Of a stretch of 36,439 nucleotides of DNA, positions 13,223-30,257 are shown piece after piece (positions within the stretch are counted from its first letter, which is position 1; every line of letters begins with the position of its first letter). The notes beneath the pieces are model-generated. The model saw nothing but the letters and a program-made list of their open reading frames with translations. It ran no database searches and was not told the origin of the DNA. The translations under genes were made by a program, and so were the position numbers. The DNA is taken from NCBI GenBank assembly GCA_020627905.1, contig JAHDFZ010000004.1:1-36439 (forward strand), given 5' to 3'. The DNA is from Verrucomicrobiota bacterium. GTDB lineage: Bacteria > Verrucomicrobiota > Verrucomicrobiia > Verrucomicrobiales > DEV007.

Positions 13223-13828
13223 TTAAAGATGGTGGGCTAGCTGAGTATCTTTCAGAAGGCAGCATCTTTTGTATTTCAATCCGCTTCCGCAGGGACATCT
13301 GACGTTCCGGCTACTCGCCTTTCTTGCCCTCTGGGGAGACATCGCCATTTCGTTCAGTATGCCGATGGCGCCATGAGCGTGGCCATCCCACGGTGGGGCT
13401 CCTTTGTTTCTGCGATAAGTCTGCCAGTAAAAGAAAGGGATGACGTAGTCATAAATAAACGCTGAGACCGACTTCCAACGGAAGCCAGGAAAGATTCCGA
13501 GACAGCAGCTGAACTCGTCACTCATATTGACATGCAGGTCTTGTGGGGAGATTCCCTCCTCTTTCGCCCAAATCAGGATGCGGGAAGAGTCCTCAAACAC
13601 TTTGGGACAACCGAAGGAATCCAGAGACGTGAGTTCTATCCTGATCTCAAAGGACTCCTCCAGATAATTCGAACGCGTATCATCGAAGTGGATCCGACCG
13701 CTTCCTATCTCGTGAGAGCACGCTATCGAAAGAGTGCCGCGCACGGAGCCCAACCGCCGATTGTAAATCAATTCGGGGAAACAGCTTTTGAGTTCCCGAA
13801 TGTCTCCTGCTGTCAACTCCGGGACCAT
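13223..13828 (-). CDS. Prokaryotic E2-like (UBC fold) protein with C-terminal SEC-C motif; CBASS-associated
   Basis: Start overlaps the CD-NTase 3' end by 16 nt. 'DLHVNMSDEFSCCLGIF' resembles the E2 His...Cys-Leu active-site region; 'PPWDGHAHGAIGILNEM' resembles the HG-x-x-G motif of bacterial E2 proteins. C-terminus 'VRCPCGSGLKYKRCC' is a textbook SEC-C motif. Confidence 0.7.
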   Translation of the reverse strand: MVPELTAGDIRELKSCFPELIYNRRLGSVRGTLSIACSHEIGSGRIHFDDTRSNYLEESFEIRIELTSLDSFGCPKVFEDSSRILIWAKEEGISPQDLHVNMSDEFSCCLGIFPGFRWKSVSAFIYDYVIPFFYWQTYRRNKGAPPWDGHAHGAIGILNEMAMSPQRARKASSRNVRCPCGSGLKYKRCCLLKDTQLAHHL

Positions 13829-14787
13829 GGTTTATGAGCAGGGGCTGTCCTGTCTTCTGACTCACCAGGGTCTGATTTTACGCTCGACCCTGCCGGGAAT
13901 CTGTCACCAAAGACCTCTCGCCATTTTTCGCACGCGGACTTTTCCGTTATGGCATTTTCGGCTTCCTCGGCCGTTTTGACGAGATCATCCAGCTCCTGCA
14001 GAACATGAGATTGGCAGAAGTCCTTCAGCATGTCCTCACCAGTCGGCGTTGTTGGGCGTGTGCAAAAGAAATTGGTGGACAGGGCATCTCGCATACCTTT
14101 GCAGGTCAGCCGAAAGGACTCGTCATCACGATCGCTTTCGACATAATGCTTGCAGGCAAGTATCGTAAGCGTGACCCCGGGTGGGAGGTCAACCGAACGG
14201 TCCTCGGTTTCCCTGAAGTTCTTCCACGCTTTCAGATACCGAATATTCCTGCGCAGCTGGCCTACTTGAGCAGTTGAGCCAATTTCTGCCTCCACCCAAT
14301 TCTGAAAAGACTTCGGATCACTTTCGCTGTAACCTGAGCCAGGACGCCCGAGTTCGGGAATGCTGTTTTCATCGGCCATCCAGTAAACTGGGAGGTCCAC
14401 ATGATGGCCATCGCTGTAGTAGACCCGAACACAGGATGTTTTGCTTTCTGCGGATTTTGTATGGCCGGTCACGGCGGCGAGCAATCTCTCGTGATACGTC
14501 TCTGCCGCTTCTCGATCCGCCTCATCGCAGAAAAAGTAGACTCCGTCGTCCAAATCATATTCTTCAATGGTTTCACCATCCTCATCTTTTGTGCGTATGG
14601 GGTTGACATTGGTCTGCAGTGGGAAGGAGCCTTGAGAGTGAAATTTCGGCACTGGTAACCCTTCTTCGTTGAGTCTCCGCTTCACGCGCTCTCTGAGTGC
14701 GGACCGATTCGTTTTCAATTTATCCCTCTTGGCCGGGTTCAGTCTGACCTTCGTATTGAATTCTGAGAATTTGGTGTGGGTATTCAT
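13813..14787 (-). CDS. CBASS CD-NTase (DncV-like cyclic oligonucleotide synthase)
   Basis: 'FHSQGSFPLQTNVNPIRT...EEYDLDDGVYFF' (GS...DxD active site), third acidic residue in 'HVDLPVYWM', and 'SDPKSFQNWVEAEI...LRRNIRYLKAWKNF' closely parallel V. cholerae DncV. Confidence 0.92.
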   Translation of the reverse strand: MNTHTKFSEFNTKVRLNPAKRDKLKTNRSALRERVKRRLNEEGLPVPKFHSQGSFPLQTNVNPIRTKDEDGETIEEYDLDDGVYFFCDEADREAAETYHERLLAAVTGHTKSAESKTSCVRVYYSDGHHVDLPVYWMADENSIPELGRPGSGYSESDPKSFQNWVEAEIGSTAQVGQLRRNIRYLKAWKNFRETEDRSVDLPPGVTLTILACKHYVESDRDDESFRLTCKGMRDALSTNFFCTRPTTPTGEDMLKDFCQSHVLQELDDLVKTAEEAENAITEKSACEKWREVFGDRFPAGSSVKSDPGESEDRTAPAHKPWSRS

Positions 14788-15377
14788 GCTTTCGGGAGTC
14801 GGCGGACTTCAATCCTGCCTTTGGTTTGTGGTTCGCGGTTGGTGTAGTAAAAGCCTCTGAGGCGGATCCCGTCGAGTGCGCGTATGACGGTCAGGACGTT
14901 TGTTCCCTGGTGCTCACCCAGGCTGTCTCCAGAGAGGTTCGAGCCTTCGTTGCGGTAGATGAAAATCAATTGATGGTCCCCGTGGTCATCAAATCGCAGG
15001 AGGGCTTCCTCGCTGACCGAGGTCGTATCCGGATCACCCGCTTTCGTGAAATCACATGTTACCTTAATGCGGGAAAGGGACTGCTTGATGTGCATCCGGC
15101 ACTGTTTCGCCGTAGTTTGGTCATTCCTGGTGAAGTGAATATGTCCCTCGTAGACGCCTGCAAGATCTGTGGCTGTAGTCAGCAGGGAGAAGATCGGCCA
15201 TCGCCAGGCCCATTTGTCGTAGGCGATCAGAACAGCGAAAACAATCGCGGTCGGTCCAACTCCATGGAAGGCGCCGTGGCCCCACAGTTTTGAAAGCACT
15301 GCTGAAGCTCCTGCCCAGAGAGCGCCTACGGCCATGACAAAAAGGCGTGGCTTATAGTTAGAAAAATCGAGATTCAT
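14784..15377 (-). CDS. Cap15-like CBASS effector (two TM helices plus SMODS-associated beta-barrel)
   Basis: Two N-terminal hydrophobic helices then a beta-rich domain 'DLAGVYEGHIHFTRN...'; ATGA overlap with the downstream CD-NTase. Confidence 0.78.
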   Translation of the reverse strand: MNLDFSNYKPRLFVMAVGALWAGASAVLSKLWGHGAFHGVGPTAIVFAVLIAYDKWAWRWPIFSLLTTATDLAGVYEGHIHFTRNDQTTAKQCRMHIKQSLSRIKVTCDFTKAGDPDTTSVSEEALLRFDDHGDHQLIFIYRNEGSNLSGDSLGEHQGTNVLTVIRALDGIRLRGFYYTNREPQTKGRIEVRRLPKA

Positions 15378-15392
15378 CAGAAGATCCTCGAG

Positions 15393-16175
15393 TCATTTGC
15401 GGAACTGTCTCGAATGAACTGTGTATCGGTCTCCCACAAATTGCAGAACTTCATTCAGGAAGGTCAGACAATCCGGTCTCGTGGATGAGTGATTGCTGTG
15501 AATGACTTCGCTGCCCTGACGGTAGAGCCTTTTGAAACGATCTCTCCGCGGTCCGCTGGCCCCAAAAAGGTCGTCCGCGCGTTTCGACGGAGGGTAATCC
15601 CAGAAGGGGTTGTCAGCCTCTCCTTCGGAAGAAAACAGCGCTGTCCGCTGACCAATATCATTCATCGCGCACTCGAGGATCATGCGACCAAGGGCGATGA
15701 CGGAGAGCGTCTGCTCCATAGCATAGCAGCGACGAGCCTCTTCCACCATTTCATGAAGGGCGGGAGGCAGTGAGGTGATGGAAACAATGGGCTTGGAAAG
15801 TTGATACCGTAGATAGGTTTCTTTCGGGCTGACCCAGGGTCGCGAATAATGGTCAGCCTCGCTTGATAAAACATCCCAGGGACCTTCGTCACTGGACGAG
15901 AGTTTCTGAAGCTCTTCAGCCGCAGCAGCTGCATTCTCAGAAAAGAGCTTCTCGACTTTCGCTTTCCGTATGGGGTCGGCTAGATTTTCAATAACGACCG
16001 CACCTGAATAGTTCTCCTTCAGAGCATCCATGGCCATGCCGACTGCGACCCCTGCTCGGACAAATTTGATGTTTTGTTCTCTCGACGATAGAGGCCCCGC
16101 CTTTTTGATAACTGCCGTGGCGGCTGAATAGTCTGCTTCTAACTGTTCCAGTTTCGCGAAAGTCATCTCACTCAT
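15393..16175 (-). CDS. Putative HEPN-like / DUF4145-like protein linked to the CBASS operon
   Basis: Helical protein; 'EARRCYAMEQTLSVIALGRMILECAMNDI ... RFKRLYRQGSEVIHSNHSS' resembles the DUF4145/HEPN core with an R-x6-H motif (RQGSEVIH). Ends 15 bp before the cap15-like start. Confidence 0.5.
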   Translation of the reverse strand: MSEMTFAKLEQLEADYSAATAVIKKAGPLSSREQNIKFVRAGVAVGMAMDALKENYSGAVVIENLADPIRKAKVEKLFSENAAAAAEELQKLSSSDEGPWDVLSSEADHYSRPWVSPKETYLRYQLSKPIVSITSLPPALHEMVEEARRCYAMEQTLSVIALGRMILECAMNDIGQRTALFSSEGEADNPFWDYPPSKRADDLFGASGPRRDRFKRLYRQGSEVIHSNHSSTRPDCLTFLNEVLQFVGDRYTVHSRQFRK

Positions 16176-16362: not shown

Positions 16363-18420
16363 CTAGGTCCGGACGTAATTGATCTCGCACCCTTTCAGGA
16401 GTCGATCCTCCTGGCTTAATCCGGCTAGTGAGAGGCTTCCGAGGTCGCATTTCTGAAAAATATCAAGCCCTCGATCCAGTGTGATTTTCCATCCATGGTC
16501 AGTCGAAATGCTTCTCGCGTGGAAATTTGGATTCGAATCATATTCATACGAGAATGCAACCCGACTTCCTTCACAGCTCTCCTGCAGTTTGCGGAGGTTT
16601 TCGTCCTGCTTCTGGCAAAGATCGGGGTCAGACTGAGTCACGAGATGAACGGCTACCTCTTCTCCCATCGGGGTGAAGGAATTTACGAGCTGGACAAGCT
16701 CAAGACAGTTGCGGATCTGCCAGAAGGTTCGGATGTAAGGATCATGAATTGTGATGCGGGTCGCGCCTTCCAGATATTCAGAAAACAATTTGTCGTAGGA
16801 GTATCCTTTGACATTCTCCGGAACAACGAAGTGGGCAGCTTTAGGCTCTTCATGCTGGGTCGCATTTTCTCCGGTTTTCGCATCGTTTTCAGGCAATGCT
16901 GGAGCGCCCTTGGAGTCCTGAGGCGGATCGGCGTCGGTCTGCATCTCTTCGTAGGCGAACAGTGATGGATATTGCACTTCCTCAGCACATTTGACAAGCT
17001 GAGGGGCCTTGTCCTTCTGATGGATGCTGAACTGCTTTTCCTCGAAAGTGGCATCGATCCTCAGGATGTGATCTTTGACTCGCTTCCGGGATTCCATCGC
17101 AAAATGGAGGATCTCGTGCATCTCCTCCTCACTTGCCTCCTGATGGGGATAGATGATTTTCATTAGCCCTGCGAAGGTCTTCTGCACGCCCGTCCGATCA
17201 CGTGTCGTGATCTCTGGATTGATCTCGAAAAACTTCTGGTATTGATCTGAGAAGTCGAGAGTTCGCAGATGGCTGAGAATCTCCGCCAGATAATCGACGA
17301 TCAGTCCATACCCTTTGGTAAAGAGTTCGTTCTGGATCGGGCCGACCTCCCAGCCGGGGATGTAGGCATGGAGTCGGTCAAGAAAAGCTGAGTCGATGTA
17401 TTTGTCTGGCAGCTGATCGAAGAAATGAGAATTCTTCAGCATGTAGGTGACGGACTTCTTGGTATTTCCCATGAAGACCATTGATGCCTCGGCACCGATC
17501 GACTCGATCCCTCGGGAGAAGGACTTATTCGCCATGTAGTTCTTCATGATGTCGACCAGGTTTTTATCCACGCGCTTGTCCTTCCCGGCGAATTCATCGA
17601 AGCAGATGCAATCCCAATGACCCACGAGGCCGATTTTACCTCCTCCCGTGTTACTCACGAAGAGTTTCGGTGTCGTTACTTCGCCCCCGGACAAGAGAAT
17701 CCCGTGAGGGGAAAACTCGGAATAGATGTGAGACTTTCCGGTCCCTTTGGGTCCGAGTTCGATCATGTTGTAATTCCGCTCACAGAAGGGAATGAGGCGG
17801 GAGAGCTGCAGCAGCGTGCCTCTTCGCGAAAACATTTCAGGATCGAAGCCGATCGTCTGCAGGAGCACGCCGAGCCACTCGTCTGTGGAAAACTGACGTC
17901 GCGCTTCCTGAAAAGCCTCGAAATCAAATTTCGAGACCTGGATGGGCTTCAGGAGGTCGATACCCCAGGGAGATGATTTCGGATCATCCGGCACTTCATA
18001 AGTGACATCGACGATGCTCCAGACTCCGCCGACCAGCAATTTCGGATGTTTGCGCACGTAGTCCTTTGCCAGGGGAACCTTTTTAATATCGAGGTTGGTG
18101 AATCTCGCTTCGTAAAATCCGCCGGCATCGTTCAGTTCCACCGTCACTTTATCGATCACCTTATGGCGGCCTTTATCCTCTATCTTTGATTTAATGAGGG
18201 GAGCAGCGTTGCGTTGGACAAAATGAGAGGCGAGGATCTCCCTCACCCTGCTGACGCCGGCATCGATCGTATCAGGATCATCAGTCGAGCAGTGCTGACC
18301 CAGCAGGTATTCTAGCACGTAGCTTGGCACTACGGCGTTTCCTTTGACGTCGGCTACCAGATCTTTCCGGACAGCCAGTCCTGCAAAATGTTCGTTTATC
18401 AGTTCATCGAGCTTATTCAT
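16363..18420 (-). CDS. brxL: BREX AAA+ protein BrxL with MIT_C-like C-terminal domain
   Basis: 'MNKLDELINEHFAGLAVRKDLV', Walker A 'ELGPKGTGKSHIY', 'WDCICFDEFAGKDK', 'IESIGAEASMVFMGNT' are BrxL signatures. C-terminus 'GYSYDKLFSEYLEGATRITIHDPYIRTFWQIRNCLEL...WKITLDRGLDIFQK' resembles MIT C-terminal (PLD-like) domain. Confidence 0.92.
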   Translation of the reverse strand: MNKLDELINEHFAGLAVRKDLVADVKGNAVVPSYVLEYLLGQHCSTDDPDTIDAGVSRVREILASHFVQRNAAPLIKSKIEDKGRHKVIDKVTVELNDAGGFYEARFTNLDIKKVPLAKDYVRKHPKLLVGGVWSIVDVTYEVPDDPKSSPWGIDLLKPIQVSKFDFEAFQEARRQFSTDEWLGVLLQTIGFDPEMFSRRGTLLQLSRLIPFCERNYNMIELGPKGTGKSHIYSEFSPHGILLSGGEVTTPKLFVSNTGGGKIGLVGHWDCICFDEFAGKDKRVDKNLVDIMKNYMANKSFSRGIESIGAEASMVFMGNTKKSVTYMLKNSHFFDQLPDKYIDSAFLDRLHAYIPGWEVGPIQNELFTKGYGLIVDYLAEILSHLRTLDFSDQYQKFFEINPEITTRDRTGVQKTFAGLMKIIYPHQEASEEEMHEILHFAMESRKRVKDHILRIDATFEEKQFSIHQKDKAPQLVKCAEEVQYPSLFAYEEMQTDADPPQDSKGAPALPENDAKTGENATQHEEPKAAHFVVPENVKGYSYDKLFSEYLEGATRITIHDPYIRTFWQIRNCLELVQLVNSFTPMGEEVAVHLVTQSDPDLCQKQDENLRKLQESCEGSRVAFSYEYDSNPNFHARSISTDHGWKITLDRGLDIFQKCDLGSLSLAGLSQEDRLLKGCEINYVRT

Positions 18421-18428
18421 GGCAGTCT

Positions 18429-20957
18429 CTAGAATTCGTCGATCTCGGTTTCGAAAGGTTTTACGAATTTCGCAATTGCTGTCTCGTAGGTTTTGCGGTG
18501 GCTGGTTCCGGGAATTTGTTCCATAAGCCGTAGCTCCAGATCCTGATTGTTAAAATCGGTGACCCGGTGTCCCAGCGTCAGGGTGAGGACGGTTTCTCGA
18601 TTGCGGGGTTCTGCATCAGTGCTTTCGAATCTAACAGTCTTCTGATCAGAGAGCAGTTCGTCGTCCGGGCTGAAAAGGCCCACCTCCAGCTCACGCTCCA
18701 GCATCTTGTCGGGTTCGGACACCACCTGTTTCTGGAACAGCCGGATGGCCACCTGCAGGGTCGTGATCTTTGCGGGGAAGCTCTGGACCTCGACATCTAC
18801 CTGCCTGCGGGAGCTTACCCTGGTTTTGCTGATGCTCACTACCGGGACGATCGTCTCCTGCGGTATCGCACCACCGTGCACGTAGCGTTTACCGGCTCCT
18901 TTTGCCCTGATGCGCTGAATTCCCTTGGCGATACCCACCTGGAAGTCGCCCTCCAGCCCCAGCTCCTCAGTAGAGAATACGCGAATCGACGAGTCAGACG
19001 AGAGCCCGTGTCCTAAGACCCAGCGCCGATGAGGGTTGCCCAGAAGTCCACTTTTCGGCGCGTCCGGGCAGTCGACATCCTCCACCTGGCTCTGCCGGAA
19101 GAGGAATCCGTGATCCGCCGTGACGACAATTTTGGTAGCATTGATATTAGCCGCCTTCTTCACCATTTTGACGATTGTCTCGATAGCGTCATCGCAGGCT
19201 GTCGTTGTTCGCTCCTCTGTGGCGAGGCTGTCACCGGTGTCATCGATCTCGTTGTGATAGATATACACCACGTCATAATCCCTCATCAAAGGGCGGCCCT
19301 CATTCTTGGTATGAAGATTGAGGAACTCCTCTGACTTCAGGATCTTTACTTTCGTTTCGGGGGCCTGATTGAGGATCTTTTCGCGGGCTTCCGATCCCGT
19401 GGTCTTGACTCCATCTGCATAAGCGATTTTTGAGTCCTCGGACAGGGCGAGCGTTTCATTCGGCAGGTGCGAGGCCATTCCCAGTTGGGTGAAAGAAGGC
19501 AGGGAGGTGAGGCGGGTGCTGATCTCGGCAGAAAACTTGTCCTCTCTCCCGATCCGCCGCTGCAGGTCAGCGGCACATTCATAGCGCAGACCGTCGGAGA
19601 TGATGACGAAGAGCTTCTGCTGACTCTGTGTGATCGGCTTCACCACCTGTTTGAAAAAGTCACGCAGACGTGACTGCGCCGACGGGGGCCATGTCGGGTG
19701 CTGGTCGAGCAGGATCTCCCAGCGGGTGGACAGCGGGGCGAGATAGCTGTTGAGATAGCTTTTTTCGACAAGGCCCTCGATTTCATCCAGCAGGGCAGGT
19801 TGCGCTGATTCTCGACGTGAAGCATGGAATTTCCGATAATGGTAGTCGATCTTCCACCAGGACGATTCGTATCGACTGATGGCCTGATCGAGGTTTTCCA
19901 CATCGAACCCGACGGCCTCTACGAGATCGAGCAACCGGGCACCATGGCGTAGGGATTGGTAAAGTGCTTCATACTTGTTAAACCATACCGAGCGTGAGCG
20001 TTTCTGGATGATCGACTTCCATTCCTCCGGCTTCCAGCGCTGTTGAGTGATCCCGTCACGAAGCCAGCAGACGAGCCGGCGCTCGATCAGTTCATAGGCA
20101 TCGACCTCCGCATCCGCTATCGACTGCAGCTCCTTGTCAGTGAGCTGATTCAGCTTTTCCGTGACATTGAGGTCTGCAGCAGTCCGGCTGGACAGGACTT
20201 CGAAACTCTGCCGAAAGCGGTTGCTGTCTTTCCAGCGGCTGAGGAATACGATCGCCTGGCTCCGCAGCTGCACCTTGGAGGAAGAGCCCAGCGGCGCATT
20301 GTTCTGAAACAGCACGATGATGAAATCGAGCAGAGAGGCGTCTGCAGATTGATAGCCGTATTGCGCCTCGACCTCCTGCCAGAAGGCGGACACCAGATTG
20401 AACTCTTCCAGCTTCGCAGTGACGGGGTCGAACATTTCGGCACCGGCCAGCTCCTCGCAGAGCTGCAGCAGGATGGCATCCAGCGAGTGATCCTGCGCCT
20501 TCAGGACGATCGCGATCATCCGCCGCCGGATCGTCCGGTGCGTTTCATCCTGCTGGATATGGCTTCTAAGAGCTTCGCGCCGTTCTTTCCGACTGAAAAA
20601 CGTGGCGTGCTCAGCCGCGAGATTTCGATACTCCGGCGGCAGTCCCGTTTCCTGCAGGTGCAGGGACGCGCGGTCAGCGTGAAACTCAGCGTTCGATAGC
20701 AGGATATCCAGCAGCCAGTTGTCCTCGTCTCTCGGACGTTCTACCGGCACGTAGAGAAGAAACTTCTGCTCAGGCTCGTCGAGAAGCACGCGGAACTTCA
20801 CACCGATCTCGTTGTTCTCGACCCGGATCGTTTCCACATCCGGCAGCTTCAAGTGATCGAGATCCTTCGACCACTCGTTCTTGCCATCATACCAGAAGAC
20901 CACGCGGTGGCGGGAGAACTGTCGTTCAAGACTACGCTGGATGTGGGGGGATGACAT
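18429..20957 (-). CDS. pglZ: BREX-1 phosphatase-like protein PglZ (type A)
   Basis: Alkaline-phosphatase-superfamily motifs 'KLFVIISDGLRYECAADLQRRI' and 'TKIVVTADHGFLFRQ'; N-terminus 'FSRHRVVFWYDGKNEW'; lies between pglX and brxL. Confidence 0.95.
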   Translation of the reverse strand: MSSPHIQRSLERQFSRHRVVFWYDGKNEWSKDLDHLKLPDVETIRVENNEIGVKFRVLLDEPEQKFLLYVPVERPRDEDNWLLDILLSNAEFHADRASLHLQETGLPPEYRNLAAEHATFFSRKERREALRSHIQQDETHRTIRRRMIAIVLKAQDHSLDAILLQLCEELAGAEMFDPVTAKLEEFNLVSAFWQEVEAQYGYQSADASLLDFIIVLFQNNAPLGSSSKVQLRSQAIVFLSRWKDSNRFRQSFEVLSSRTAADLNVTEKLNQLTDKELQSIADAEVDAYELIERRLVCWLRDGITQQRWKPEEWKSIIQKRSRSVWFNKYEALYQSLRHGARLLDLVEAVGFDVENLDQAISRYESSWWKIDYHYRKFHASRRESAQPALLDEIEGLVEKSYLNSYLAPLSTRWEILLDQHPTWPPSAQSRLRDFFKQVVKPITQSQQKLFVIISDGLRYECAADLQRRIGREDKFSAEISTRLTSLPSFTQLGMASHLPNETLALSEDSKIAYADGVKTTGSEAREKILNQAPETKVKILKSEEFLNLHTKNEGRPLMRDYDVVYIYHNEIDDTGDSLATEERTTTACDDAIETIVKMVKKAANINATKIVVTADHGFLFRQSQVEDVDCPDAPKSGLLGNPHRRWVLGHGLSSDSSIRVFSTEELGLEGDFQVGIAKGIQRIRAKGAGKRYVHGGAIPQETIVPVVSISKTRVSSRRQVDVEVQSFPAKITTLQVAIRLFQKQVVSEPDKMLERELEVGLFSPDDELLSDQKTVRFESTDAEPRNRETVLTLTLGHRVTDFNNQDLELRLMEQIPGTSHRKTYETAIAKFVKPFETEIDEF

Positions 20958-20985: not shown

Positions 20986-21423
20986 TCAGGCTTCGATCTT
21001 GCTGCTTCCGGACCGGATCCTTCTGCCTGCCTGCTTCCGGCTGGTAGCGCGGGAGTGCAGGCCGATCTGGGGTTCGTTCACAAGCACCTCCGCAGGGATC
21101 TGGAGATGACGATGCAGCTGCCGGATCATCGTGAGACTGAGGCTCCGCTTCCGATTGAGCACCTCCGAAACCTTGCTCTTCCCGGAGATGAATTCCGCCA
21201 GGTCCTTCTGCTTCAGGCCCATCTGATCCATGCGGAACTTAATCGCCTCGATCGGATCAGGAGGGCCGATCGGGATATGCTCTTTCTCATATTGCTCGAC
21301 GAGCAGGGACCACAGCTCCAGCTGATTCTCTTCCGGCGAGCCAGGTTCCGCGTCCATCAGACCCTCCAGGTGCTCGAGCGCTGACTGGTATTCTGCTTTC
21401 GTCTTGATGATTTTGGGATCCAT
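20986..21423 (-). CDS. higA: HigA-type antitoxin, HTH/XRE family
   Basis: 'IKFRMDQMGLKQKDLAEFISGKSKVSEVLNRKRSLSLTMIRQLHRHLQIPAEVLV' is the HigA HTH region; it follows the toxin gene. Confidence 0.9.
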   Translation of the reverse strand: MDPKIIKTKAEYQSALEHLEGLMDAEPGSPEENQLELWSLLVEQYEKEHIPIGPPDPIEAIKFRMDQMGLKQKDLAEFISGKSKVSEVLNRKRSLSLTMIRQLHRHLQIPAEVLVNEPQIGLHSRATSRKQAGRRIRSGSSKIEA

Positions 21424-21437
21424 GGCTGATCGGTTCG

Positions 21438-21731
21438 TTAGATGGTTTCGGCATTCACCTTGTCGTATTCAGCGTGAGTTCCGACGAAGCGGATATAGAC
21501 GACGCCGGTGTTGTAGTGGATTTTTACGATGAGGCGGTAGGTGTTTCCTTTGATGTTAAAGACGATGCGGTTTCCACGGATGATGTCGGCAGAGGGGTAG
21601 CGGAGCTTGATGTCATTCGGTTCGGCCCATCGGGAATGCAGCGCTTCCTGATACCAGGCTTTCAGGGCCTGTTCAGCGTCTTCATGCGCTTCCCAGAAGT
21701 CCCGCAGAGTTTTCAGGGCGATCACTCTCAT
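21438..21731 (-). CDS. higB: HigB-type mRNA interferase toxin (RelE superfamily)
   Basis: 'MRVIALKTLRDFWEAHEDAEQALKAWYQEAL...RIVFNIKGNTYRLIVKIHYNTGVVYIRFVGTHAEYDKV' is a full-length HigB. Confidence 0.93.
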   Translation of the reverse strand: MRVIALKTLRDFWEAHEDAEQALKAWYQEALHSRWAEPNDIKLRYPSADIIRGNRIVFNIKGNTYRLIVKIHYNTGVVYIRFVGTHAEYDKVNAETI

Positions 21732-21819: not shown

Positions 21820-24800
21820 TCACGAGAGTCCGGTGACTTTAGCGAGAGCCTTGCCGAATTTTGGATAGTTTGCCTTTACCCCATCATCGAGATCGATTTC
21901 GAGACGCTGCTGAGCGAGGGGAAGGAGGGTATCGCGTTCGTATTGTTCGACATCGAGGATCGCTTCCCGCGTCTTCTTGAGCTTTTTGCGGTCGGCAGCG
22001 GTGGCGGTTTCGGCTTCGACTTTGGCCTGCAGCTCGCTCTCCTGATGGACTAGCTTGTGGCGGAACTCGCGAAGGTAACCGGTGAGCAGGATGTTCACGG
22101 TGTCCTTGGTGTAGCGATGCAGATAGACCAGGGCGCGAAAGTGTTTCTTCGGGCTTTGGAAGAGCCAGTAGATGGGACGCTTTTTGTAAGTCTTGACGTG
22201 ATCGGCGTAGAAGCCGCCGGTGTTGGCGGTGAAGTATTTCCGCAGCGGCTTGCCGAGACTGTCTTCGAGGAAGGTCAGGTTCTGCTCCAGCGTCTCGGGA
22301 CCGAAGGTGGCGCGGAGAAAATCACGGACGCGGCTGGCGGCATCGTCGGGGAACCACTCGTCTTCGGTGATGGGGACGATGGCGTCGTCATCGGGGGCGA
22401 AGGTGAGTTCGTCGGCGGACTTGCCGACTTTTTCGAGATAGTCCTCCACGGTGTCTCCGGCATCGGCGAGGATGAGGCCGGACTTGTCGAGACTGTATCG
22501 GCCCATCATGCAACCAACCGCGTAGGAGACGAAAGCGGCCATGTCGTCGCGAGCATCGGCTCGGGCGAGAGTGATTTCGTCCTCGGGGACCTCGGGTGTC
22601 AGTTCATCTTGCAGTCCGTAGACGTCGATCCAGAGACGGTTGTTCTCGGTCTCCAGTTCCTGCATGCGCCGGATAGCGGCGGTGCAGTAGGCGGCGTAGT
22701 TGGCCCACGACTCGGCGAGGGTGCGGCCTTTCCACGCGCCGCTGGGTTGGCCGGGCTCGACTTCCCAATCGCCAGTGCGCAGTAGTGGCAGATCGCGGAA
22801 GTCCCAGCTGGTTTCGAAGTTGTCCCAGTCGGCGCGGGCGACCTCAATCGCCCCTCTGACTGTTTTGACTATATCCTTTTTACTATTGCCGGGGAGTTCT
22901 GCCTCAAATGGCAGTGTCGCCATGTTGCCGACTTGAAACTCCGACGTCGGATTTAGGAAGTCCATCATCGTGGACACCAACGGTGAAACCAGAAAACCTA
23001 GGACAAGCTCCCTGCTGGTTTCTGGAAACATCGATGAACCCTTAACGTCAAACAGGAATCCCTTCGGTGTCTCCCTTGCGCTAAGCCTAGCCGTTGTCGT
23101 TGTAGTCCAAGTGATGCCTGGACGGAAATAGAATGACGGATTACGGACGGCGGAGCGGACCTTCCCTCGGTCATCCAAAAAGTTACGAATCTCGTATCCG
23201 TCGTTCTCCCAGTTCACGACATAATAACAATTTCCATACCAATTCCTAACAGGACCACCCTTGTTATATGGAAACCACTTTCTTTGTGATGAATTCGCTG
23301 CTTCGGCATCGTCGCAGTCGTAAGAACTCAAACGATCTGAAACCTCGTGCCAATGTCTGAGGAATCGATCGTTGTCTGCTGTCGCCATACCCTGTCTTGG
23401 CCTACAAAACTCAGACAAAGAAGGCAGGTGCTCGAAGTGAGCCTGCATCTTTCTGGAAGCCCAGTAGGCAACAGGAGACCCAGGTATTCTGCGAAAGTTC
23501 TCAACAGAGGCGGTCTTTAGCCTCTCATTCTCAACTGGAAATTCATGCGGAACACCGCGCCCATCAGTCTCGAAATATCGAACGCACATGAATCTTCCTT
23601 TGTAGTTTTCGTTGTGCGATAGACTGAAGATAGTCGCAGCCGTCCCGAAGCTAATTCCCATGCTCGTTCCGCCTTTTCCTAGATACGGCATATGCAGCAT
23701 CGATTCGATAGTGCTCTTGGAATACAAGCTCACTCTCAGTTCCTCAAACGTAGGAAGGAACATCCAGGATTCGAGGGTGACCATTGCCATGAATCCTTTC
23801 GCCCGTCCAGATGTCGCACCTTTCTCTAAAAACATTGCGAAGAAATCAGCAGCGGAATCAGGATAGTATTGATCTGCAAAGTTCTTCGCGAGATTGTTCA
23901 TTTGTTTTCGCCCCATATATGGCGGATTCGCCACGACGACCTGATACCGCTGGCTTAGCATCTCCGCCTGATTGACAACGAGCCGGAACCTGCGTTGAGT
24001 GTCCTGCACGAGAAGGTCGCCCGTAGCCGATTTGTCACCAATCTTTGTCATGAGGGCGTCCAATTCCCCGACATCAAGAACTGGCTGAATGAGCGAGCCG
24101 AAGGTCTCTGTGTGTTCTCGGAACTGGTGGATTTGGGCAAGTTCGTCCTGGCTGAACTCTTCGCCTGAGGCCTTGCTCCAGGCGTGAATCTCCTCCGGAG
24201 AGATCACCACATCCTGCAGCCGCATCACTTCCGGTTGAACCGCACGACGAAATGCAGATCGACTCTGCTCTCGCGCTTTGCATACAAGCGCAAACTGCGC
24301 GAGCTGCGCGGCACGAGGGCAGATCTCAAGCCCATGCAGATTGTTTTCCAAGATTAGCGCCGGAATCTCACTGGGAGTGTAGCCTTCCTCCTCGTAGATC
24401 TTCACAAGCAAATCGAAAGCATAGGTCAACATGTGGCCGGAACCACAAGCCGGATCGAGTAGCCGGATCTCCTCTGGAGTCTCTATCGTAAGGCTGTCGG
24501 CAGGCTCCTGTCCCTCGGGTTCTTCCACGTAGTAGGGCATGTGCTCCCGAAGCCGAGAATCCGGTCGTGACCGCAGCCACAGGCGACCGAGAGAGTTCTC
24601 CACGAGATAGCGCACAATCCAGTGCGGGGTGAAAAGCTGGGTGACGGCGGGAATATCCTCCGAAGGCACGGCTTTTTTCCGCGCCATCACTTCATCCTTT
24701 TTTTCCGAGATGTAGAACTGGTAAAGCCAGCCGAGAATTTCGACCTCGGCGCAATCTTCGTCGGTGATCTCACTCACGAAACCATGGACGACGGAATGTT

Positions 24801-25332
24801 CGGTCAGCAAGTCGTCTGGGAGCAGCAACTCGGTGAAGGCGTCGATCTTGTCGAAGAGATTCGGCAACAGGTCGGCGTAGTATTGGCTGACGCCGATCAC
24901 GAGGAGCCGCTGCACTTCGGCTTGGGGATTTGGGCTTGGCAGGTTGCCGTCCAGCAAATCATTGATGCGGGAGGCCGAAACGAATTCTTTCAATTCCTCG
25001 GGCACGACTCCTTTGCGAACTTGCTGGAGCAGCTCGGGCAGCACATCGCCCTCACTCGGCGCGGTGATGACGCGGACGCGAAAGGGATGCCACCCGTGCG
25101 CATCGAGATACCGGAACGCGGCGAACCGGTTGAACCAGGTGTAGGCGACCCGCTCGATCAGTGCCGCGCGCCCTTCATGCTCAAGCACGCGCCGGAGGTC
25201 GCTTAGAAGCTTCTCCTGCGCCGCGAGGTCAGGCGTTTTCGCCGTGAGCACGTAGTCGAGCTTCACCTCGACCTGCTTCATCAGTTTCGTGCGGCATTCC
25301 GGGGCGAAACGTTTCAGTCTACTGGTATCCAT
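21820..25332 (-). CDS. pglX: BREX-1 adenine-specific DNA methyltransferase PglX
   Basis: Motif I 'LLDPACGSGHMLTYAFDLLVKIY', motif IV 'YQVVVANPPYMGRKQMNNL'; size and position fit BREX-1 PglX. Confidence 0.96.
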   Translation of the reverse strand: MDTSRLKRFAPECRTKLMKQVEVKLDYVLTAKTPDLAAQEKLLSDLRRVLEHEGRAALIERVAYTWFNRFAAFRYLDAHGWHPFRVRVITAPSEGDVLPELLQQVRKGVVPEELKEFVSASRINDLLDGNLPSPNPQAEVQRLLVIGVSQYYADLLPNLFDKIDAFTELLLPDDLLTEHSVVHGFVSEITDEDCAEVEILGWLYQFYISEKKDEVMARKKAVPSEDIPAVTQLFTPHWIVRYLVENSLGRLWLRSRPDSRLREHMPYYVEEPEGQEPADSLTIETPEEIRLLDPACGSGHMLTYAFDLLVKIYEEEGYTPSEIPALILENNLHGLEICPRAAQLAQFALVCKAREQSRSAFRRAVQPEVMRLQDVVISPEEIHAWSKASGEEFSQDELAQIHQFREHTETFGSLIQPVLDVGELDALMTKIGDKSATGDLLVQDTQRRFRLVVNQAEMLSQRYQVVVANPPYMGRKQMNNLAKNFADQYYPDSAADFFAMFLEKGATSGRAKGFMAMVTLESWMFLPTFEELRVSLYSKSTIESMLHMPYLGKGGTSMGISFGTAATIFSLSHNENYKGRFMCVRYFETDGRGVPHEFPVENERLKTASVENFRRIPGSPVAYWASRKMQAHFEHLPSLSEFCRPRQGMATADNDRFLRHWHEVSDRLSSYDCDDAEAANSSQRKWFPYNKGGPVRNWYGNCYYVVNWENDGYEIRNFLDDRGKVRSAVRNPSFYFRPGITWTTTTTARLSARETPKGFLFDVKGSSMFPETSRELVLGFLVSPLVSTMMDFLNPTSEFQVGNMATLPFEAELPGNSKKDIVKTVRGAIEVARADWDNFETSWDFRDLPLLRTGDWEVEPGQPSGAWKGRTLAESWANYAAYCTAAIRRMQELETENNRLWIDVYGLQDELTPEVPEDEITLARADARDDMAAFVSYAVGCMMGRYSLDKSGLILADAGDTVEDYLEKVGKSADELTFAPDDDAIVPITEDEWFPDDAASRVRDFLRATFGPETLEQNLTFLEDSLGKPLRKYFTANTGGFYADHVKTYKKRPIYWLFQSPKKHFRALVYLHRYTKDTVNILLTGYLREFRHKLVHQESELQAKVEAETATAADRKKLKKTREAILDVEQYERDTLLPLAQQRLEIDLDDGVKANYPKFGKALAKVTGLS

Positions 25333-25366: not shown

Positions 25367-28300
25367 TTACAAAGTCACGCCCCTGCCCTCGCCGACATGC
25401 TTGCGCATCTCCGACTCCAGTGTGGCGAGGAATGAGTCAAGAGTAGCGTCATCAGAAATGACGACATGATCTCCGGCGGCTTTGGTGATGAGCGTCCGAA
25501 TATTTGTGTAGGCAGGAGCTGCCCCACTCGGCTCGGCGGCAGCAGGCGTTTTTGCGCCTTCGTCCGCTCCGGAAATGCCTTTCGTATAGTCGGCAGCTGG
25601 TTTCGAGATCTCGTCAAGCTGAGCCGAAAACTGGTGTTCCGTATACTGGCGCAGCTTATCGCCGATCATCGGGATGAGTGTTTCTCTGGAGATCTCTTCC
25701 TTAGCATATCGAGATTTGCTGAGGATGCTCTCTCTGCGCTCGGGATCCAGTTTGGCGAAGTCCGGATGGGATTTCAGTTTTTCCTCACGCTCCTCGATCG
25801 CAGCGATCGCCTCGCTCTGCCGGGCTGCTACTCTTTTCTCTACTTCTGTCTTAACGCTTTCGTAAGCAGTGATGGCGCTCTTCATCGCGCCCCCCCGGAA
25901 GGGGGCAGTCCCCTGCACGACTGCCTGCATCTCCTTCAGCTTAGCATCGCCCGAAGGAAGATTGCCCGACTGCTCCCGGAGAAAGGAGGTTATCCTGCGG
26001 AAGGTAGCTCCATTCGGTCCGTTCAGGAAGGCTTTGATAGGATCGATGAGGTCCTCCTTCGCTGTCAGGAGATCGTCATCGAACTCACGCAGTGATTTCA
26101 GCGGGTAGGTGTAGTCGCGGGCCGAGAGCTTCTGCAAGCGGTCGCGAATGGGTTCGAGAGAGGCGACAAAAGGGAAGGCTTCCTTCTTTGCGATGATCGT
26201 GTTCAGCTGATTTGTTTCCTCATTGAGAGCTGCGAGCAGGGCTTTCGACACGGATTTGGCATCATTGCCGGGATTCGACTGATTGAAAAAGTCGTGATGG
26301 AAATTCTTCAGCGCGGTGACGGTCGTGGCATCGAATTCCTCCTGCATCTGCACGATGACGCTGCCATGCTGAGCGGAATTGCCGAGGGCTGCTGAGGCAT
26401 CCTCCTGATCGAGGACCTCGGCCCCCCGTTTCAGCTCGATCTTGTGCCGACGAAACAGGCGCGCCATCAGGCAGAGAGTGGCAGCATCCGGCCAGCCATA
26501 ACTGCCTTTGCGGAAATTGCCCAGAGTGTCCTGCACGGTCACCCGTTTATCGGATATCTTCTGACGATTGAGGTAGGTCAGGACTTCCTGCTCTGCTTCG
26601 GTAAGCTGCTCGCTGATGAGGTCATTCTTTTCCTCCAGAATGGCAGGGATCATCGCCTCTTTGTATTCCGTTTTGAGCATTTTCAGGTTCGGATAGACGA
26701 AGCGGATCAACTCCTGAAATGCCTTGCCGCTGCGCACCCTGGGGTCTGCTCCTGTGACCTCGATCTCCGAGCCGTTGACGACGAAGGTAGCCTGCGATAT
26801 GAGATCCCGGCCCTGCTCGATAAGCTTTCTCCGCCGGTCACTATTCTGGTTCTGCCGTCCCAGGAGAATGGCCCGCTTCGAGTCGGAGAGGTTCGACGAG
26901 GTCTGCTGACGCACGTAAGTGGAGGTCTGCTCATACAGCTCCACCTCATCTACGAGGGAGCGGTCATCCGGGAGGATGACAAGCAGCTCACGCTTGCCGG
27001 TATTCTGCGATTTGAGTGTCGGGAGGTCCCCTGCATTATCGTGACCTGCCGTGACCATGTGGATGGAGAGATCCTGCGCCCGCCCGTAGTCGCTGCCATC
27101 GATCTGTTTCCCGAAAGGGTAGTCCTGGCCGTTATCGTCGAACCGCAGTTTGGTATCTTTGATGACATCGCCGAAAAGCACCTTATCGAGCAGTTTGTTG
27201 ACCACATCACTGCCTATCTGAGTGTTTTTGAGATCCACCTCGATGTCTTTTTCCTCATCTGTGAGGAACTCGTAGGCATCACCGTTTTTCTGCAGGTAGT
27301 GCTGATGGTAGAGGAAGTTAAGCTCTTCTTTCACAGCCTGGTCGTGTGCCGCGATATCGATATCTGCGCGGTCGATCAGCAGGATAGCGACATTTCGAGG
27401 AGTGGAAACAAACTCGGAAACATACTTCAGCAGAAAGAGAGATTTGAGGATACGCACTGCCAGAGGGTGGTCGGCCTGCAGATTCTTTTCTGCTGTTCTT
27501 ACGCTGCGCTGGAAGTCTCCGCGCAGGACATTCGAAAGGCCCTCGAACATCAGATCGAAGGTGGCAAAGGTATTGATCGGAAGATCGGCGATGTGCTTGG
27601 CGACTTCCTGAAACACGGAGAGCATGGAGCGCTCGCCAACGGATGCGTGCTTCCCGGTGAAGGCATCGTGCTGCGAAAGGCGCTCAATCGCCGTCTGGAA
27701 CAGGTCGAACTGATACGGGTGGAAGGGGGCGAAGCGGCAAAAGTGGTCAGCACTGTCGAATCCCCGGAACTCTCTCGAGCCATCTGCAAACGAGAAAAGC
27801 GTGCGGAGATTCTCCTTCTCCTGCAGGTAGAGTTCCTCCAGATCGGGCACTCCGGCTTCCGTCTTTGTCAGAAGGCGCTTCTGGATTACTTCTGACACGT
27901 TTGCGCTGGTGAGGGTGGGACGAATGGCAAAACGGCCCATGATCTTGGTGAAGTCGTTCCCGTCGATCTCATCCAGCTCTCCAACGACCTTCTCAATGTC
28001 GCCCTGGGATGTCACAAAAATCCATGCTCTGCCATCACAGGTGACGGCCAGAACCTCGGCGATCGTCTGAAGGTTCAACATCAGTCGTGAGCGCCGACCG
28101 ATGAACTGGCCAGCCTCGTCGACAAAGAAATTGATGCGTGTCCCGGCTGGCAGGGAATCGAGATATTCTTTCACCCGGCTCGCAAGCGCCTCTACGGAAA
28201 TGCGGTGCTTCTCACGAAGCCGGTCGAAGAGTCTTAGCCCTTCCTCTTCCGATTTATTGAAGAACTTCGCATACACACGGGCGAAGGTTTCATTCTCAAG

Positions 28301-28900
28301 GACGTCTATATCATCGAGGTGTTCCTCCCAGGTGGAGCCGCTCTCCTCCTTGTAGGCGGCTTTAAACTCATCCAGCTTGCCATCCTTCCAGAGACCACGC
28401 TCGAACTGAGCGATGTAATCGAGCTTTGCATAGAAGCCCTGCTCCTCATTGAGAACCTTTGCGAAGACTTCCAGAAGCTGGGCATCCGGGTCAACGCCGA
28501 TGGCATCTGCTTTCTGATCAACGTTGAAGAGGATGCTCCGTGATGGAATCTTCGCTGCGTCTTCGAGAGTGGTGCGGAAGAATGCGTCATCGGAAATTTC
28601 TTTCTTGGCAAGGAAGCGATCACAGACCGATGAACCATCAATGTCCTGATTCTCCAGCAGAACGGCGAGCATCTTCAGGAGGTGTGATTTACCCGATCCG
28701 AAGAAGCCGGAGATCCAGACGCCGTTGGCAGATCCCGGGTCTTTGTATTGCTCAAACAGGCTCTCCAGCTTCGGTTTCAGCTCGCGAGTGATGACATACT
28801 CCTCGACCTCGGTTTTGAGCCGTCTATCGTCATCCGCTTTGATGACGCCGTCGATGTCGCGGCTGACGTCATTTTCAAGGATGTCTCTGATCGTTGCCAT
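25367..28900 (-). CDS. brxC: BREX P-loop ATPase BrxC
   Basis: 'MATIRDILENDVSRDIDGVIKADD', Walker A 'GFFGSGKSHLLKMLAVLLEN', 'RINFFVDEAGQFIG'; about 1177 aa, matching BrxC. Confidence 0.96.
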   Translation of the reverse strand: MATIRDILENDVSRDIDGVIKADDDRRLKTEVEEYVITRELKPKLESLFEQYKDPGSANGVWISGFFGSGKSHLLKMLAVLLENQDIDGSSVCDRFLAKKEISDDAFFRTTLEDAAKIPSRSILFNVDQKADAIGVDPDAQLLEVFAKVLNEEQGFYAKLDYIAQFERGLWKDGKLDEFKAAYKEESGSTWEEHLDDIDVLENETFARVYAKFFNKSEEEGLRLFDRLREKHRISVEALASRVKEYLDSLPAGTRINFFVDEAGQFIGRRSRLMLNLQTIAEVLAVTCDGRAWIFVTSQGDIEKVVGELDEIDGNDFTKIMGRFAIRPTLTSANVSEVIQKRLLTKTEAGVPDLEELYLQEKENLRTLFSFADGSREFRGFDSADHFCRFAPFHPYQFDLFQTAIERLSQHDAFTGKHASVGERSMLSVFQEVAKHIADLPINTFATFDLMFEGLSNVLRGDFQRSVRTAEKNLQADHPLAVRILKSLFLLKYVSEFVSTPRNVAILLIDRADIDIAAHDQAVKEELNFLYHQHYLQKNGDAYEFLTDEEKDIEVDLKNTQIGSDVVNKLLDKVLFGDVIKDTKLRFDDNGQDYPFGKQIDGSDYGRAQDLSIHMVTAGHDNAGDLPTLKSQNTGKRELLVILPDDRSLVDEVELYEQTSTYVRQQTSSNLSDSKRAILLGRQNQNSDRRRKLIEQGRDLISQATFVVNGSEIEVTGADPRVRSGKAFQELIRFVYPNLKMLKTEYKEAMIPAILEEKNDLISEQLTEAEQEVLTYLNRQKISDKRVTVQDTLGNFRKGSYGWPDAATLCLMARLFRRHKIELKRGAEVLDQEDASAALGNSAQHGSVIVQMQEEFDATTVTALKNFHHDFFNQSNPGNDAKSVSKALLAALNEETNQLNTIIAKKEAFPFVASLEPIRDRLQKLSARDYTYPLKSLREFDDDLLTAKEDLIDPIKAFLNGPNGATFRRITSFLREQSGNLPSGDAKLKEMQAVVQGTAPFRGGAMKSAITAYESVKTEVEKRVAARQSEAIAAIEEREEKLKSHPDFAKLDPERRESILSKSRYAKEEISRETLIPMIGDKLRQYTEHQFSAQLDEISKPAADYTKGISGADEGAKTPAAAEPSGAAPAYTNIRTLITKAAGDHVVISDDATLDSFLATLESEMRKHVGEGRGVTL

Positions 28901-28912
28901 AGGTGGGGAAAA

Positions 28913-29527
28913 TTAAAGGTGATAGTGATCAAGATTGAAGGCGCGGTAGTAGCCTTTGTGAGAAAGTTTTCCGAACAGGCGGAGGTCAGAACCGGCGGCT
29001 TCGCGATGCTGGTATTCACCGGGGAAAAAGAACACCACCGGGCGCTGGTCCATACTGGACTGCAGGCCCTCGAGAATCGTGTGAGTCCTCAAAAACGGGA
29101 ACACCGCTCCGCATCCCTTAATGAGGGTGATCTCCCAGTCCTCGGAATCGAATTTCGATTTCATGGCCGGTATCAGATGGTCTTTCGCATCGGTCCAGCG
29201 GGCCATGGTGGACAGCATCTTTTCCCGGGTGAATGTGGGCTCTCTCTCGAGCAGCCGCTTCAGGCGGTCGTCGCGGGATGTGATCTCTTCGACGAGTTCG
29301 AGCAGATGGATGCTCAGGACACCGACCCCGTTCGACGATAGTCTGCTATGAAGGGCTCTGATCCGTTTTTCGACCGCCTCCTGCGCACCAATCTCATACG
29401 GCTGGATGAAGAGGGACACCTCATTCCCGATCCCGCTCGAGCCACGGAAGCGATCTGACTGCATAACTGCGAATAGTCGCTCAAATGTATTATCGAGCAG
29501 TGCCTCAGGTGATGGAGTCGGTGTCAT
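28913..29527 (-). CDS. brxB: BREX protein BrxB (DUF1788)
   Basis: 'LFIQPYEIGAQEAVEKRIRALHSRLSSNGVGVLSIHLLELV...GCGAVFPFLRTHTILEGLQ...RPVVFFFPGEY' is typical of DUF1788; 4-bp overlap with brxA. Confidence 0.93.
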   Translation of the reverse strand: MTPTPSPEALLDNTFERLFAVMQSDRFRGSSGIGNEVSLFIQPYEIGAQEAVEKRIRALHSRLSSNGVGVLSIHLLELVEEITSRDDRLKRLLEREPTFTREKMLSTMARWTDAKDHLIPAMKSKFDSEDWEITLIKGCGAVFPFLRTHTILEGLQSSMDQRPVVFFFPGEYQHREAAGSDLRLFGKLSHKGYYRAFNLDHYHL

Positions 29528-30132
29528 GGAGTCGGCTGGAGGAAGGCGGGCAACAGGCTCAGGTCTTCATCCCGAATCACAGCGATCACCTGCTGGGACA
29601 GAACAGCGGGTGCGATGCGTTGTGGAACTGTGTCGGAGAGGATTTCCCCCTCCGTGAGAATTCGATGGGTAATCTGTCTGATCTTTTTGGCTGTTGAATC
29701 GCTTAGCTCTGCCAGTTCGGGGTGCGCTGGTTCCTGCTGCTCAACGAAACTGGAATAGTCGGATGGCCTGACCTCAAAATCAAAAACCTCTGCTTTCTCC
29801 CTGAGCACTCCTTCAGCGTAGTCCCGGACAAAGCGATAGCGCTTAAAAACAGCAAGCAGCGCGATTGGCACTCTGGCCTCAGACGGGCTTTCTACCAGTA
29901 ATGCCGTCTGATTGGCCGTGAGCGTCTCGAGACGGAGTCTGAACTCCCGCTCGAGTCGAATCAGGGAACTCTCTTTTGACTGACGGAAGATATTGTCCCG
30001 AATCGCCGCCTTTCTCACCTCCTGCCAATCTTCATTGAGTTCCACAAAAAGAGTGGCCAGCTCGAGTAGTTGAGAGGAGCCCAAACCGAAGGCGGTAAAC
30101 CCGAGATTGTATCTACAGTCGGCTAACGGCAT
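29524..30132 (-). CDS. brxA: BREX protein BrxA (DUF1819)
   Basis: 'YNLGFTAFGLGSSQLLELATLFVELNEDWQEVRKAAIRDNIFRQ' resembles the BrxA/DUF1819 N-terminus; first gene of the BREX operon. Start set at 'MPLADCRYN'; the ORF track extends to 30222. Confidence 0.88.
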   Translation of the reverse strand: MPLADCRYNLGFTAFGLGSSQLLELATLFVELNEDWQEVRKAAIRDNIFRQSKESSLIRLEREFRLRLETLTANQTALLVESPSEARVPIALLAVFKRYRFVRDYAEGVLREKAEVFDFEVRPSDYSSFVEQQEPAHPELAELSDSTAKKIRQITHRILTEGEILSDTVPQRIAPAVLSQQVIAVIRDEDLSLLPAFLQPTP

Positions 30133-30157
30133 TCCCTGAATAATCGAAGGCTTAGCT

Positions 30158-30163
30158 ATTATA
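30158..30163 (-). promoter_or_regulatory. brxA: Candidate -10 element for brxA (TATAAT)
   Basis: Minus-strand TATAAT 26 nt upstream of the likely brxA ATG; no good -35 seen at 17 nt. Confidence 0.35.
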
Positions 30164-30257
30164 GACGACGGCCTTTCAGCGAGTGGGGCGATCCGGCGCG
30201 GTTGGCGGTGGCTATCGAGCAAAGGTTCGGGATTGGGAATTCAGGGAGCATTGCAGA

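Follow-up and report, generated by a model that had tools for sequence, protein, structure and literature searches.

A BrxL protein of a complete type I BREX operon in Verrucomicrobiota with an MITD1-type, PLD-fold domain in place of the Lon-like C-terminus

Introduction

BrxL of Acinetobacter encloses double-stranded DNA and assembles on it in an ATP-dependent manner, and its Lon-like tail is a dead enzyme that pairs two BrxL rings tail to tail (PMC10164562). In this solved BrxL, the Lon-like tail is located far from the bound DNA, which counts against a DNase at this end of the protein (PMC10164562). Another type of tail has been reported for 1030 of 2913 type I BrxLs (counted as taxa; about a third), where it was named 'HKD-endoDNase', was noted to have an HRD motif and was taken to be an active DNase (PMC12839542). 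The proposal in that paper that HRD keeps the domain active may hold but is unproven; Lys-to-Arg at that position (K758R) is a standard dead mutant of PLD2 (PMC10942622). Human MITD1, which belongs to the comparison for reasons of homology given below, has been described as a membrane tether (PMC6015221).

Here we analyzed a BrxL encoded in a 36,439-nucleotide stretch of contig JAHDFZ010000004.1 from a Verrucomicrobiota bacterium (the window). What we add to the published variant is the assignment of its tail to the MITD1 family, a division into classes A and B, an invariant pocket, and fusions of the same domain to dynamin-like GTPases.

Results

The brxL gene (16363..18420, minus strand) encodes 685 amino acids and is the final gene of a type I BREX operon (TIGR02688, 573.9 bits). 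The 698-aa PADLOC profile PDLC02508 spans its product end to end (residues 1-685, 979.5 bits). BrxL_N (residues 10-141; 17998..18393, minus strand; Pfam PF20442, 8.7e-42) and the BrxL AAA+ ATPase domain (BrxL_ATPase, residues 154-465; 17026..17961, minus strand; Pfam PF13337, 5.3e-123) are both above the curated cut-offs, and the translation of the latter contains Walker A GPKGTGKS and Walker B FDE. The sequence-only reading of this DNA had the open reading frame, its strand, its coordinates and its identity right. An open reading frame on the plus strand over the C-terminal domain (16495-16965) is merely antisense to brxL.

The AAA+ core is followed by an acidic, Pro/Ala/Glu-rich linker (residues 466-528; 16837..17025, minus strand) with a net charge of −7 and abundant A, E, P, Q and K, whose sequence is variable among relatives; the flexible low-complexity linker described in the earlier reading is indeed present. 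Among 95 class A proteins, the class of the window's BrxL, the gap between the core and the C-terminal domain has a median of 64 residues and ranges from 49 to 92. AlphaFold prediction of full-length BrxL from the single sequence reached a pLDDT of only 36.

The operon is a complete type I BREX of six genes in the order brxA-brxB-brxC-pglX-pglZ-brxL, which all lie on the minus strand, brxL being last. Upstream of brxL are pglZ, the BREX-1 type A phosphatase/nuclease gene (18429..20957; TIGR02687, 2.3e-200), the methyltransferase gene pglX (21820..25332; NF033452, 1244 bits), brxC (25367..28900; NF033441, 1001 bits), brxB (28913..29527; PF08747, 6e-30) and brxA (29524..30222; PF08849, 3.2e-40). 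We also observed a HigBA-type toxin-antitoxin pair (20986-21731, minus strand) inside the operon between pglX and pglZ, composed of a HigB_toxin gene (21438-21731, minus strand; 5.9e-34) and an HTH_3 antitoxin gene (20986-21423, minus strand), the N-terminus of whose product is covered by a PADLOC match to PD-Lambda-2_B. A short CBASS module (13223-15377, minus strand) follows downstream of brxL and shares its strand; it has a Cap15-type 2TM effector (14784-15377), a cGAS-like cyclase (13813-14787) and an E2-like protein with a SEC-C motif (13223-13828). A 260-aa open reading frame between brxL and the CBASS effector (15393-16175, minus strand) had no matches in Pfam, NCBIfam or PADLOC.

The canonical Lon-like tail was ruled out by three comparisons. 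A search with an HMM from ten C-termini of the Lon type gave no match in BrxL, although filters were switched off and E=100 was allowed; the match to TIGR02653, a 675-aa model of the Lon type, was confined to its first 470 positions; and a phmmer search of the PDB matched the cryo-EM BrxL 8emc with residues 3-470 only, ending before the Lon-like domain of 8emc. The C-terminus therefore does not align with the ordinary Lon-like domain, as the earlier reading had proposed in placing an MIT_C domain there instead.

The tail itself contains an MIT_C domain with a PLD fold (residues 539-683; 16372..16806, minus strand; PF16565, 1.7e-35, or 1.7e-36 in the genome match). The match covers profile positions 1-141 of 142 and scores 122.5 bits, the cut-off being 25. 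Residues 530-658 matched human MITD1 (4a5z) at 1.8e-16 in a single-sequence phmmer search of the PDB, and a profile built from 45 tails found MITD1 at 2e-41. These values are far beyond chance and bear out the MITD1-like C-terminal domain of the earlier reading. With 45 related tails as input, two rows from plasmid records being left out, AlphaFold modeled the tail with a pLDDT of 96.4 and a pTM of 0.90. A Foldseek search with this model placed MITD1 chains on top (TM 0.83-0.87, E down to 2.7e-14), followed by mouse Zucchini, H. pylori NucT, human PLD2 and Salmonella Nuc (TM ~0.5, E ~1e-4 to 1e-3). The tail thus has the PLD fold of HKD nucleases, as seen from the matches to 4ggk, 6ehi and 1byr. 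At the level of profiles, hhalign gave a probability of 0.1% and no alignment between the tail and ordinary HKD domains, a weak negative because the HKD profile holds only five domains, all from the window's own genome; PLDc_2 matched weakly (0.039) in 1 of 45 tail members. The tail is a member of the MITD1 family by homology and a relative of PLD by fold.

Alignment of 76 nonredundant BrxL tails from many phyla revealed 14 residues invariant in 76/76: Y562, R564, Q568, N571, T595, H634, R636, G643, W644, R650, G651, L652, D653 and Q656. Because W644 and RGLD, and Q656 in the case of viral contigs, belonged to the search pattern, the invariance of these residues is partly circular; Y562, R564, Q568, N571, T595, H634, R636 and G643 were outside the pattern and recur in matches from unbiased Pfam HMM searches. 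The motif HARSISTD (16498..16521, minus strand), H634-x-R636-x4-D641, presumably occupies the place of HxKx4D in PLD enzymes, judging from the topology. Position 641 is Asp in 68 and Asn in 8 of the 76 tails, and Ser in two further members. Position 636 is Arg in all BrxL tails, in both dynamin fusions described below and in MITD1, and never Lys. Hence, in place of the catalytic-Lys HxKx4D and the GSxN of HKD nucleases, the tail has HxRx4(D/N), with Arg in 76/76, and RGLD; the absence of GSxN also speaks against a DNase. Human MITD1 retains 13 of the 14 invariant residues, with Lys at Q656, and has Asn at D641. Compared with close relatives, the tail evolves under purifying selection (dN 0.14-0.19, dS saturated), at roughly double the rate of the core (dN 0.07-0.10).

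The tails fall into two classes that differ in both tail and core: class A, that of the window, has the motif HARxIxTDxGWKIxLDRGLD, and class B has HDREIRxDNGWxIxIGRGLD. Human MITD1 grouped with class B tails (support 100/99; 48% identity over 123 columns), as a descent of MITD1 from a BrxL might produce, but the tree is unrooted, and with the dynamin fusions added, the branching among these, MITD1 and class B was not fixed. In the maximum-likelihood core tree, Lon-type BrxLs lay between classes A and B, as two separate acquisitions of MIT_C by BrxL might produce, but a single MIT_C clade was not rejected by the AU test (p 0.34 and 0.20). Lon-like and MIT_C tails interchange on one conserved BrxL core.

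A match to the BrxL ATPase was present in 23 of the 289 genomes that made up an even sample of the phylum; MIT_C was found on 8 of 18 full-length BrxLs and the Lon-like tail on 10 of 18, and 4 more were short or without such a tail. MIT_C occurred in 19 of 384 genomes of the class: on BrxL in 15, on a dynamin-like protein in 1 and in fragmentary form in 3. A scan of genome contigs found more than 500 stretches coding for relatives, and the 80 loci retrieved were all BrxL, from Verrucomicrobiota, Cyanobacteria, Pseudomonadota, Spirochaetota, Bacteroidota, Planctomycetota, Gemmatimonadota and others, including one Woesearchaeota bin. The nearest named relatives of the window's BrxL are from Verrucomicrobiota MAGs (L041-L043). 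Full-length BrxL of the MIT_C type is also present on plasmids of Sphingobium, Sinorhizobium, Rhodococcus and others, and phage records gave no match. Thirty-three IMG/VR viral contigs (L121-L153) carry the BrxL-type MIT_C. An apparent PglZ::MIT_C fusion on one 4.5-kb viral contig (L136) looks like a chimera or an internal deletion across pglZ-brxL and was dropped. In one family of the phylum, open reading frames of ~370-420 aa (L034-L040) matched MIT_C weakly, with 21-25 bits over profile positions 57-125.

The sole non-BrxL prokaryotic carriers of MIT_C that we saw are two dynamin-like proteins. One, from the same class (genome G357, L174:7409-10123), is a 904-aa protein with a Dynamin_N GTPase domain (2.8e-21) and a C-terminal MIT_C (1.2e-46). 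The other, on a plasmid of Thiodictyon syntrophicum (L176:9857-12700), is a 947-aa dynamin-like GTPase with a C-terminal MIT_C, and mprF is among the nearby genes. Both fusions have weak similarity to LeoA.

Discussion

There is hardly any doubt that the protein studied here is the BrxL of a complete type I BREX whose Lon-like C-terminus is swapped for an MIT_C domain of the MITD1 type with a PLD fold. In this respect the sequence-only reading was correct, but the novelty that it implied did not hold and it overlooked both the nuclease alternative and the HxRx4D triplet. PADLOC has a dedicated profile for this architecture, NCBI labels fragments of such proteins 'MIT C-terminal domain-containing protein', and roughly one type I BrxL in three shows the swap (PMC12839542). 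The architecture is thus known and common, and the window copy is ordinary.

As a whole, we lean slightly toward a restriction factor of type I BREX whose MIT_C tail engages DNA; for the tail taken separately, we consider the chances evenly balanced that it acts on DNA, by cleavage or by a catalytic-type engagement of the phosphodiester. A PLD-fold module on a flexible linker in place of the Lon-like tail makes a mobile effector on DNA phosphodiesters the likeliest function. The N-domain and AAA+ ring would load on DNA with ATP as in Acinetobacter BrxL, and six or seven MIT_C domains would hang off the ring on flexible linkers of ~60 residues. These domains may pair up like other single-motif PLD domains, so that the invariant His/Arg/(Asp or Asn) pocket could grip a phosphodiester of the DNA held in the ring and would most probably nick or cleave it, adding an effector to PglZ. 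The domain calls, the PADLOC match over the entire protein, the complete operon, the enclosure of DNA by BrxL (PMC10164562), the fold ranking with MITD1 and then HKD nucleases, the invariant pocket and the purifying selection on the tail all favor this explanation, and PMC12839542 independently reads what is apparently the same variant as an HKD-type DNase. Nuclease activity of the tail is nevertheless unproven, because Arg always stands at the place of Lys and a K-to-R substitution inactivates PLD2. The negative profile comparison with ordinary HKD domains also counts against it. Moreover, the pocket is equally kept in MITD1, a human membrane tether, so that conservation alone cannot separate catalysis from binding.

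The same observations lend themselves to a dead PLD-fold module that took over ring pairing from the Lon-like tail or docks a BREX partner, its pocket merely binding a phosphate or nucleotide ligand. We regard this as somewhat unlikely. The Lon-like tail is after all itself a dead enzyme for ring dimerization (PMC10164562), the two tail types replace each other on one core, the K-to-R change is uniform, D641 is Asn or Ser in some members, and MITD1 keeps the same residues with no known enzymatic role; however, an invariant His at the nucleophile position together with 13 other invariant residues exceeds what a dimer interface needs, and a flexible linker of 49-96 residues fits a mobile effector better than a rigid contact between rings. 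Less probable still, and in our judgment improbable, is that the tail binds anionic lipid and keeps BrxL at the envelope where phage DNA enters. This idea rests mainly on one eukaryotic relative, the membrane-binding MITD1 being the closest solved structure (PMC6015221), and it stays alive because MIT_C is also fused to dynamin-like GTPases, presumed membrane remodelers. The conserved residues, however, form a polar set and not a surface patch of basic or hydrophobic character. Two further points count against a membrane tether: BrxL works on DNA in the cytosol, and bacteria generally have no phosphoinositides. The net charge of the tail (−7) is uninformative on this point, since that of MITD1 is also negative (−3).

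What is at stake is whether the tail is regarded as an 'HKD-DNase' or as a member of the MITD1 family with Arg for Lys. Were it a nuclease, roughly one in three type I BREX systems would have a second such enzyme. Its function also bears on what the conserved pocket may do in MITD1, a factor of human cytokinesis. We put forward, as a tentative and on balance doubtful generalization, that what a third of type I BrxLs carry at the C-terminus is an MITD1-family domain and not an HKD nuclease. It would have one non-classical function, be it Arg-based catalysis or the binding of membranes or of a phosphate ligand, in bacterial BREX, in dynamin-like proteins of bacteria and in MITD1, an ESCRT-III factor of animals; the domain of MITD1 would be nearest in ancestry to class B tails.

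Among the known systems, the closest is the BrxL-HKD variant (PMC12839542; PDLC02508), defined by replacement of LonP with a PLD-fold tail bearing HRD. The window's BrxL shows this replacement and has the same core, with H-R-D in the tail, in the same operon with pglZ. As HARSISTD is the HRD motif and its position and the frequency of the swap agree, we take the two to be identical; nothing essential differs, and MIT and MITD1 are unnamed in PMC12839542 (0 occurrences of the word MIT). Acinetobacter BrxL (8EMC/8EMH) shares the N-domain and AAA+ core over residues 3-470 (462 bits), whereas its Lon-like C-terminal domain is missing here. The HKD/PLD nucleases Nuc, NucT and Zucchini share the PLD fold, with HxRx4D in the presumed place of HxKx4D, but the window's tail differs from them in having Arg for Lys, no GSxN and no detectable profile similarity. 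The MITD1 C-terminal domain (2YMB/4A5Z) is closer to class B tails than to the window's class A, and its partner, the N-terminal MIT domain, is absent from the window's protein in the Pfam scan; the homology to it is nevertheless clear, with a TM of 0.87 and 13/14 invariant residues in common.
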